Shown piece by piece: positions 18,885-20,586 of a stretch of DNA of 64,000 nucleotides. The translations under genes were made by a program, and so were the position numbers. Under the pieces are notes generated by a model that saw only the letters and a program-made list of their open reading frames with translations, was not told the origin of the DNA and did not search any database. Source of the DNA: Halorussus amylolyticus (lineage in GTDB: Archaea > Halobacteriota > Halobacteria > Halobacteriales > Haladaptataceae). The number at the start of each line of letters is the position of its first letter. Position 1 is the stretch's first letter. The stretch lies in the NCBI RefSeq assembly GCF_004143485.2, contig NZ_ML974130.1, positions 446,621 through 510,620 on the forward strand. The letters are read 5' to 3'.

Positions 18885-19817
18885 TCAGTTTCTCGCTCGC
18901 TCGGTCTCGCCGCCGACCAACTGCTCTACGTTCTCGTCGTCTTTCCACTCGCCGAGTTCCTTCGGGTCGATGTGGACGAACACGTCGTCCACCTCGTCGA
19001 GGTCTCGAATCGCCTCGACCACGTCGGTCTCGATATCGTGGGCCGCCATGAGCGTGCGGTCGCCCTCGACCTCGATGTGGAGGCTCACGTCTATCTCCGG
19101 GCCGACGTAGTGGGCGATGACGTCGTGGGCACCTTCCACGTCGGGGTGGGCGAGCGCCCGGCGCACGATTTCGACCCGGAGGTCTTCGGGCGGCGCGCTC
19201 CCGACGAGGTAGTCCACGTTGTCTTCCACGATTTCGTACCCGGTGTAGAGGATGCCGAGCGCGACCGCTCCGGCCGCCACCGGGTCGAGAATCGGGTAGC
19301 CGAGGTTCGCGCCCGCGACCCCGACGAGCGCCGCGCTCGCGGTCAACACGTCGATGCGGTTGTCGAGCGCGGTCGCGCGCACCGCGGGCGACCGCACGCG
19401 CTCGGCGACGTTCAGGCAGTAGCGATACAGGCCGATTTTGACCGCGGCGGTCCCCGCGAGGACGACCAGTGGGGCCGGACCCGACGCGACCGCGACGTCG
19501 CCGGAGAGGACGCTGGTCGTGGCCTGCCAGAGGACCGCCCCGCCCGCCGCGAACACCCCGACCGCGACGAACAGCGAGACGAACGGTTCGATGCGCTCGT
19601 GGCCGTGCGGGTGGCCGAAGTCGGGCGGTTGGGTCGTCAGGTAGAGGCCCGCGACCACGACCATGCTGTAGGCTACGTCGGCGAGGCTGTTGACCGCCTC
19701 CGAACCCACCGCGAGGCTCCCGGTCGTCCACCAGACGACGCCCTTGGCCGCGACCAGCGCGACGTTGACCGCCAGCACGAGCGCGCCGACCCGCCGAACG
19801 GCCGCTCTTCGATTCAT
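18885..19817 (-). CDS. Cation diffusion facilitator (CDF) metal efflux protein
   Basis: A 310-residue CDF transporter with six membrane helices and a C-terminal ferredoxin-like cytoplasmic domain. The transport-site residues read N43-x3-D47 (NSLAD) in helix 2 and D152-x3-D156 (DNRID) in helix 5. This N-D-D-D quartet has, as far as I recall, been linked to manganese-type CDFs rather than the His/Asp site of zinc exporters. A His-rich loop GHPHGHER follows helix 2. The start MNRRAAVRRVGAL is chosen over an over-long frame that would overlap the Cys-rich gene. It lies 76 bp downstream of the Cys-rich peptide gene, with a hairpin between. Confidence 0.88.
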   Translation of the reverse strand: MNRRAAVRRVGALVLAVNVALVAAKGVVWWTTGSLAVGSEAVNSLADVAYSMVVVAGLYLTTQPPDFGHPHGHERIEPFVSLFVAVGVFAAGGAVLWQATTSVLSGDVAVASGPAPLVVLAGTAAVKIGLYRYCLNVAERVRSPAVRATALDNRIDVLTASAALVGVAGANLGYPILDPVAAGAVALGILYTGYEIVEDNVDYLVGSAPPEDLRVEIVRRALAHPDVEGAHDVIAHYVGPEIDVSLHIEVEGDRTLMAAHDIETDVVEAIRDLDEVDDVFVHIDPKELGEWKDDENVEQLVGGETERARN

Positions 19818-19861
19818 CGGGCGTGGCTTTGGCCGCCGGAAAGAAGGGTGTATCGTTCTCC

Positions 19862-19891
19862 TCGGTCGGTCGTACCGTTTCGACCGACCGA
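19862..19891. terminator. Hairpin between Cys-rich peptide and CDF genes
   Basis: An 11-bp stem (TCGGTCGGTCG / CGACCGACCGA, 8-nt loop) lies 2 bp beyond the stop codon of the Cys-rich gene and 45 bp before the CDF start. It could end most transcripts after the peptide gene or mark an mRNA processing site, giving more peptide than transporter. Confidence 0.55.
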
Positions 19892-19893
19892 CG

Positions 19894-20079
19894 TCAACAG
19901 CAGGCCGCGCTGCCGCCGTCACAACAGGCCGAATTGCTGCCGTTACCGCAACAGCAGGCCGCATTGCCACCGCCACAGCAAGCCGCGCCGCCACCGCAAC
20001 ACCCGCCACAACAGCAGACGACCGCGACCGCGGTCGTTTCCGAGTCAGTACAACAGTCGGTCTCGCAGTTGTCGGACAT
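19894..20079 (-). CDS. Cysteine-packed 61-residue peptide ending in CC (halo-CC-star-like)
   Basis: This gene encodes a 61-residue protein with 17 cysteines, grouped as CC or CCC clusters (C9-10, C22-24, C27-28, C34-35, C42-44, C52-53, C60-61) in a Gly/Ala/Asn background, and ending exactly in CC. It starts MSDNCETDCC. RefSeq names halo-CC-star proteins (HcsS/HcsL) for haloarchaeal Cys-rich proteins ending in CC, as I remember; this appears to fit but needs checking. Metal binding like a metallothionein, or a modified peptide, are possible roles. A TATA box lies at leaderless distance. The gene is divergent from an HxlR regulator and followed by a CDF metal transporter. Confidence 0.75.
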   Translation of the reverse strand: MSDNCETDCCTDSETTAVAVVCCCGGCCGGGAACCGGGNAACCCGNGSNSACCDGGSAACC

Positions 20080-20105
20080 CGCACTCGCTGGTAGGCCCCG
20101 GACAT

Positions 20106-20113
20106 GGATAAAG
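20106..20113 (-). promoter_or_regulatory. TATA box of the Cys-rich peptide gene
   Basis: On the minus strand CTTTATCC lies 27-34 bp before the ATG. The opposing HxlR gene has its own TATA box about 55 bp away, so the 117-bp gap between start codons can hold shared operators. Confidence 0.6.
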
Positions 20114-20165
20114 AAGTCAGCGTCCCGAGAGAAAGGTGGTTTCTCCGCCGAAACTCCCCGGTGGC

Positions 20166-20172
20166 GTTTATC
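20166..20172 (+). promoter_or_regulatory. TATA box of the HxlR regulator gene
   Basis: GTTTATC lies 25-31 bp before the ATG of the regulator. This decides the MTERSADASG start over the longer frame that begins upstream of the box. Confidence 0.6.
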
Positions 20173-20196
20173 CCGTTCGCGCGCCAAGGTTGTGGT

Positions 20197-20586
20197 ATGA
20201 CCGAACGCTCCGCCGACGCTTCGGGCGACGACTGGCGTCGCACGTGGCACGCGGTCCGCGACGTGCTCGGTTCGAAGTGGGCGTTCCACGTCGTCCGGGC
20301 GCTCGCGGTCGAGGAACGAGGGTTCAACGACCTCAAGCGCGACTTGGCTGGCGTGACCGCCAAGACGCTCTCGGAACGACTCCGAGAGCTTCGGTGTCTC
20401 GGATTCGTGGAGAAGGAAGTCCACGCCACTTCGCCGCCCACGACGACGTATCGCCTCACCGACTACGGCGAGTCGCTCGCCGCGATTATGGGCGACGTGG
20501 AATCGCTCGTAGACGTGGTCGAGTGTCGCGACCGAGACTGTCCCGTTCCGGCGACGACCACGCCCGAATGCGCGTGCGACTGCTAA
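20197..20586 (+). CDS. HxlR-family winged-helix regulator with Cys-rich tail
   Basis: A 129-residue HxlR-type regulator. The winged helix spans about residues 15-95 (VLGSKWAFHVVRAL, GFNDLKRDLAGVTAKTLSERLREL, YRLTDYGESL). Unlike ordinary HxlR proteins it ends in a cysteine cluster: C110, C115, C125, C127 and C129, the last residue. This suggests direct metal or redox sensing. It is divergent from the Cys-rich peptide and CDF genes and probably controls them. Its stop codon abuts that of the convergent HIT gene with no base between. Confidence 0.82.
   Translation: MTERSADASGDDWRRTWHAVRDVLGSKWAFHVVRALAVEERGFNDLKRDLAGVTAKTLSERLRELRCLGFVEKEVHATSPPTTTYRLTDYGESLAAIMGDVESLVDVVECRDRDCPVPATTTPECACDC

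Follow-up and report, generated by a model that had tools for sequence, protein, structure and literature searches.

A Cys-rich peptide and a divergent Cys-tailed HxlR regulator form an apparently undescribed two-gene module in haloarchaea

Genes of the locus

The window is a 64,000-nucleotide stretch of the Halorussus amylolyticus genome. The features discussed here are a regulator gene of the HxlR family (20197..20586, + strand; 129 aa), a gene for a Cys-rich peptide which is transcribed divergently from it (19894..20079 with the stop codon, - strand; 61 aa), and a CDF transporter gene (18885..19817, - strand) downstream of the peptide. A prior sequence-only reading had described these three genes together with the gap between the first two, and its description is borne out: the peptide has 17 Cys residues and ends in CC, the regulator carries five Cys in its last 20 residues, the transporter possesses an N-D-D-D site, and the gap of 117 bp holds a TATA-like element for each of the divergent genes. 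A metal or redox role, as had been proposed there, is still the most reasonable reading of the peptide and the HxlR protein.

The peptide

Cys makes up 28% of the 61 residues and there are no aromatic residues or His. This resembles the composition of metallothioneins, small proteins in which Cys accounts for about 20-30% and aromatics and His are scarce. Orthologs are found at the same place in six genomes. This ortholog family ranges from 29 to 67 aa (examples are MSDDCCVTDTDCCIDTDQIVVCCCGSGCC and MSNHCCVSDCCTDADTVVIVNCCAGTSCTDRDCCSECC), and Gly/Ala-Cys-Cys repeats make the window peptide one of its longer members. The median Cys content of the peptide family is 24%, with aromatics and His nearly nil; in most members a short hydrophobic stretch can be recognised by eye before the C-terminal Cys cluster. 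None of the Pfam and NCBIfam models matched the window peptide at E values up to 1, and this includes the Pfam models of known metallothionein families as well as the halo-CC-star models HcsL and HcsS of NCBIfam. BLAST searches with the peptide against 392 genomes returned weak matches alone, which were not taken as homologs; low-complexity Cys peptides do not align, and the regulator was therefore used as the anchor for searches.

The peptides are under selection as coding sequences. The ratio pN/pS is 0.23-0.26 in one group of relatives (L148/L149/L152) and 0.54-0.60 in another (L140/L143/L145), and TGC and TGT are swapped for one another at conserved Cys codons.

The HxlR regulator

Membership in the HxlR family is clear from PF01638 (66.0 bits, cut-off 20.8), while the ArsR/SmtB-type model HTH_5 reached 12.7 bits against a cut-off of 22. 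The best NCBIfam matches, redox_TF_RrpB and RrpA, lie under their cut-offs. An AlphaFold monomer model of the protein matches QsrR, HxlR and HypR, and YodB is also among the nearest structures. HxlR relatives of known function are mostly sensors of oxidants, quinones or aldehydes, and HypR, YodB and QsrR carry a conserved N-terminal sensing Cys. No Cys precedes residue 67 in the window protein. Cys67 ends the recognition helix (residues 55-67 of the model), and five further Cys (C110, C115, C125, C127 and C129) lie in the C-terminal tail, CRDRDCPVPATTTPECACDC, of which residues 118-129 have pLDDT values below 50 in the monomer model. Across an alignment of 19 sequences C110 is nearly invariant, and C67 and C115 are fully so.

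Promoters and a putative operator

The TATA-like element of the peptide promoter (20107..20114, - strand; GATAAA on the + strand) is conserved in the orthologs, and that of the HxlR promoter (20166..20172, + strand) lies about 27 bp before the ATG; the HxlR mRNA is likely leaderless. Between the two elements sits a palindrome which had escaped the sequence-only reading, and which we regard as a putative operator (GGTGGTTTCTCCGCCGAAACTCCCC, 20135..20159, no strand assigned). Its core, GTTTC-TCCGCC-GAAAC, or GTTTC-N6-GAAAC in general form, occupies 20139-20154. The distance to the HxlR ATG is 42-43 bp in all seven orthologs, and that to the peptide ATG is 59 bp in five. At two loci (L051 and L056) the latter distance has grown in 19-bp steps, to 78 and to 97 bp in place of 59, with the spacing to HxlR still 42-43 bp.

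The peptide-HxlR pair within the Haladaptataceae

The family sample comprised 28 genomes. HxlR orthologs with 75-83% identity are encoded by seven of these, and in every case (7/7) a short divergent Cys-rich ORF with a CC end follows, and then the CDF gene. The pair is present in seven and cleanly absent from 20 of the 27 genomes that could be judged, the remaining one being too fragmented. The gene order MTase-CDF-HIT is otherwise unchanged in genomes without the pair, where the CDF gene adjoins HIT. The peptide and the Cys-tailed HxlR are a two-gene module.

Cys-tailed HxlR proteins and their partners across the Halobacteria

When 392 genomes were searched with a profile built from 11 HxlR proteins, 43 of them, in 25 of the 86 genera, contained matches; loci were then fetched and examined. 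Of the HxlR proteins studied, 44 had three or more Cys beyond the wing and were classed as Cys-tailed, and 27 were tail-less. A Cys-rich partner is encoded beside all 44 of the Cys-tailed proteins and beside none of the tail-less ones, though the counts carry no correction for shared ancestry, so that Fisher p-values make the loci seem more independent than they are. The hinge Cys shows nearly the same division (43/44 against 0/27). The partner is a divergent peptide of 27-89 aa at 23 loci (with a CC end in 18), a divergent DUF2703 protein at 14, and an ars operon at seven. On the HxlR tree these labels require at least seven changes, from which it follows that the pairing has outlived several switches of partner. 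When the search was extended in two families, it gained two more Cys-tailed HxlR proteins, each with a DUF2703 partner and an operator core that is perfect, and two proteins lacking the tail, which had neither partner nor operator. The bacterial HxlR matches (L044 and L045) have no Cys tail and no peptide.

The DUF2703 type is found at L131, L138, L141, L142, L146, L147, L150, L153-L155, L157, L159, L160 and L164; three of these partners were tested against Pfam, all matching PF10865, and the others were recognised by similarity. Those encoded divergently to a Cys-tailed HxlR end in a Cys cluster. Four of the loci adjoin arsR, arsC or acr3, which suggests a metalloid role for haloarchaeal DUF2703. 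Bacterial DUF2703 genes also occur within ars clusters. The domain is thioredoxin-like (PMC3091736), and a DUF2703 gene of Rhodococcus is induced by arsenate (PMC6514093).

The ars-type sister regulators (L041-L043, L134-L137, L178 and L179) belong to an operon of the form acr3-arsR / arsD-arsA-hcsL-hcsS-Rdx-HxlR, to which arsM is added in some cases. HcsL, HcsS and Rdx of this haloarchaeal operon all have CC at the C-terminus, and the HcsL of L042 scores 154 against a model cut-off of 140. At the same locus (L042:3655-3924) a Cys-containing protein of 90 aa, with no Pfam or NCBIfam match, is encoded between Rdx and HxlR; it is missing from the plasmid gene tables of two relatives. No ars genes were found near the 23 peptide-type loci (16 of them outside the family) or near the pair in the window, and no ArsA_halo match in the window's own genome exceeded the cut-off. 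The sequence-only reading had pointed to halo-CC-star annotations for similar peptides. HcsL and HcsS are indeed real NCBI annotations with a CC end, and they sit in the ars operon of the sister HxlR proteins, but the peptide itself is matched by neither model. We found no paper on halo-CC-star proteins in the literature.

Distribution of the putative operator

With a threshold of at least 9 of 10 matches to GTTTC-N6-GAAAC within 200 bp, the operator is present at 18 of the 23 peptide loci and six of the 14 DUF2703 loci; it was found at none of the seven ars-type HxlR loci, at none of 27 controls, and in 0.3% of shuffles. Two deep-branching peptide loci (L168 and L169) carry an altered palindrome, CTGTC-N6-GACAG, which is possibly a co-evolved operator; L169 is without the hinge Cys.

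The exact core occurs in 4-12 copies per genome. A wider regulon was considered and rejected: apart from the module, the core sites in seven genomes revealed no recurrent intergenic target, the one exception being a site common to two close Haladaptatus genomes. A katG-like gene of the window's own genome is preceded, at a distance of about 160 bp, by an identical 17-bp operator, GGTTTCTCCGCCGAAAC (G000:C5:161501-161517; L076, L177), and a second site with one mismatch is located about 80 bp further on. The exact core sites in the six other module-bearing genomes did not include one at katG.

Proposed function and signal

The pairing, the conserved Cys residues, the conserved operator-like site and the selection on the peptide lead us to regard it as somewhat more probable than not that the module combines a sensor with a buffer, that is, a thiol-based, metal- or metalloid-responsive and autoregulated HxlR switch controlling a metallothionein-like peptide. 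An HxlR dimer would bind the palindrome between the two promoters. Cys67 and the Cys residues of the tail (110, 115 and 125-129) may together form a thiol site for a soft metal or metalloid ion, As(III), Sb(III), Cd, Cu and Ag being among the candidates. Binding of the ion would alter the interaction of HxlR with DNA, presumably in the direction that switches on the peptide and regulator genes, and the peptide would then bind the same ion as a small metallothionein. The downstream CDF gene would be an older neighbour, independently transcribed.

As the signal, a soft metal or metalloid seems to us roughly twice as probable as an oxidant, because sister regulators lie in ars operons and some DUF2703 genes lie beside arsC, acr3 or arsR. 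The 23 peptide loci are without ars genes, and arsenic can therefore not simply be transferred to them.

The alternative that fares best, though we hold it to be considerably less probable, is a redox or electrophile switch, in which the HxlR Cys residues would form disulfides or adducts with hypochlorite, quinones or aldehydes and the peptide would serve as a sacrificial thiol buffer. The nearest structures (QsrR, HypR and YodB) are indeed thiol-redox HxlR proteins, the best if sub-threshold NCBIfam matches are redox regulators, the DUF2703 and Rdx partners are thioredoxin-like, and the same operator precedes katG in the window's own genome. However, the N-terminal sensing Cys of the known redox HxlR proteins is missing, the katG site does not recur as an exact core in the other six genomes, and the ars-gene neighbours of the sister clades point to metalloids.

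The CDF transporter

The transporter belongs to the CDF family (PF01545, 150 bits; TIGR01297, 189.5 against 82.35), and scores under the equivalog cut-offs of both FieF and MntE. Alignment to FieF D45, D49, H153 and D157 places its transport site at N43-D47-D152-D156. We consider it improbable that peptide, regulator and transporter constitute a metal homeostasis operon of three genes, where the peptide buffers and the CDF protein exports the same cargo. The CDF gene does lie directly downstream of the peptide at all seven orthologous loci. In the distant genome G322, a member of another family, a pair of Cys-tailed HxlR and DUF2703 is located between the orthologous CDF gene (76% identity) and MTase, beside the same transporter in a different position, and on a plasmid of Halorubrum sp. 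BOL3-1 another CDF gene adjoins Rdx and HxlR. Against this, the gene is present in 28 of 28 family genomes with or without the pair. It has a promoter-like element of its own, GATACACCCTTCTTTCC (19838..19858, - strand), with the motif GATACxCCCTTCTTTCC kept in most genomes of either kind. A GC-rich hairpin directly 3' of the peptide stop codon (19862..19891, - strand; z = -3.2 for the whole stretch) possibly separates the peptide from the CDF gene. None of the stretches of about 3-6 kb fetched for the 16 peptide loci from beyond the Haladaptataceae contained a CDF gene. An N-D-D-D site, moreover, suggests hard ions such as Mn, unlike Cys ligands.

The constant presence of the CDF gene, its own promoter element and the 16 CDF-free loci led us to reject it as an obligate member of the module; it is a conserved neighbour, probably outside the module, and any functional tie between the two is weak. 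Of the single locus for which the sequence-only reading had argued, the peptide-HxlR unit stands, recurs across the class and shares a putative operator, but the CDF gene as a constituent finds no support.

Other readings of the peptide

The peptide might instead be mainly regulatory, taking metal from, or pairing with, the Cys tail of HxlR and so resetting the switch rather than storing the ion. The exclusiveness of the pair would suit such a role, as would an operator which in most genomes seems limited to the module's own promoter; yet in sister clades its place is taken by DUF2703 and ars proteins, as would sooner be expected of an effector, and we judge a mainly regulatory peptide to be very unlikely. 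That the ORF is no gene and arose by chance in GC-rich intergenic DNA is hardly credible, in spite of its low complexity and lack of a family match, since divergent ORFs with at least 20% Cys accompany 11 of 370 called gene starts (the fetched haloarchaeal loci and the window), all 11 being HxlR genes of the Cys-tailed type, the divergent position and CC end are kept in seven orthologs, and one group of relatives shows the low pN/pS given above.

Significance

In our literature search, which covered mainly titles and abstracts, we came upon no account of a peptide and regulator paired in this way, and the two-gene module is apparently undescribed. Whether the Cys-hinge, Cys-tail HxlR proteins as a whole represent an undescribed class of haloarchaeal metal or metalloid sensors, each locked to a Cys-rich effector and most commonly here to unannotated metallothionein-like peptides of 27-89 residues, we would put at an even chance. 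If they do, the peptides together with their dedicated regulator and operator would amount to a haloarchaeal metallothionein system. Many haloarchaeal genera thus seem to share a thiol-based system for metals or stress that has escaped notice. The hinge Cys and Cys tail render the regulator subfamily recognisable by sequence alone, and this one subfamily links arsenic operons, DUF2703 proteins and short peptides. Soft-metal buffering in haloarchaea, and the roles of the DUF2703 and CC-ended proteins, thereby become testable through a single family of regulators.

Comparison with known systems

FieF and MntE belong to the same family as the neighbouring transporter, and its N-D-D-D residues align to the FieF site; it differs in falling below both equivalog cut-offs, and nothing in this comparison ties it to the module. 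The redox regulators HypR, YodB and QsrR of the HxlR/DUF24 family have the fold and family in common with the window protein, in which thiol-based sensing is likewise to be expected, but here the N-terminal Cys is lacking, and the Cys residues sit where the recognition helix ends and within a disordered tail. The DUF2703 proteins (PF10865) are divergent partners of the same type of HxlR, with a Cys-rich C-terminus and the same operator; they are thioredoxin-like domain proteins of about 150-195 aa, unlike the short peptide. HcsL (NF041416) and HcsS share the C-terminal CC and co-occur with a sister Cys-tailed HxlR. Both differ from the window peptide: HcsL exceeds it in length and has a single, terminal CC, and HcsS has 62 aa and four Cys.

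In Synechococcus PCC 7942 the metallothionein gene smtA is paired with the divergent gene for the repressor SmtB. A divergent regulator, a tiny Cys-rich protein and an operator between them, here a predicted one, are common to both arrangements. SmtB is a member of the ArsR family, whereas the haloarchaeal regulator is an HxlR protein with a Cys hinge and tail, and the peptides are unrelated in sequence. By analogy with smtAB, the peptide-HxlR pair may be viewed as a regulator-plus-metallothionein arrangement in which the regulator is of the HxlR family.
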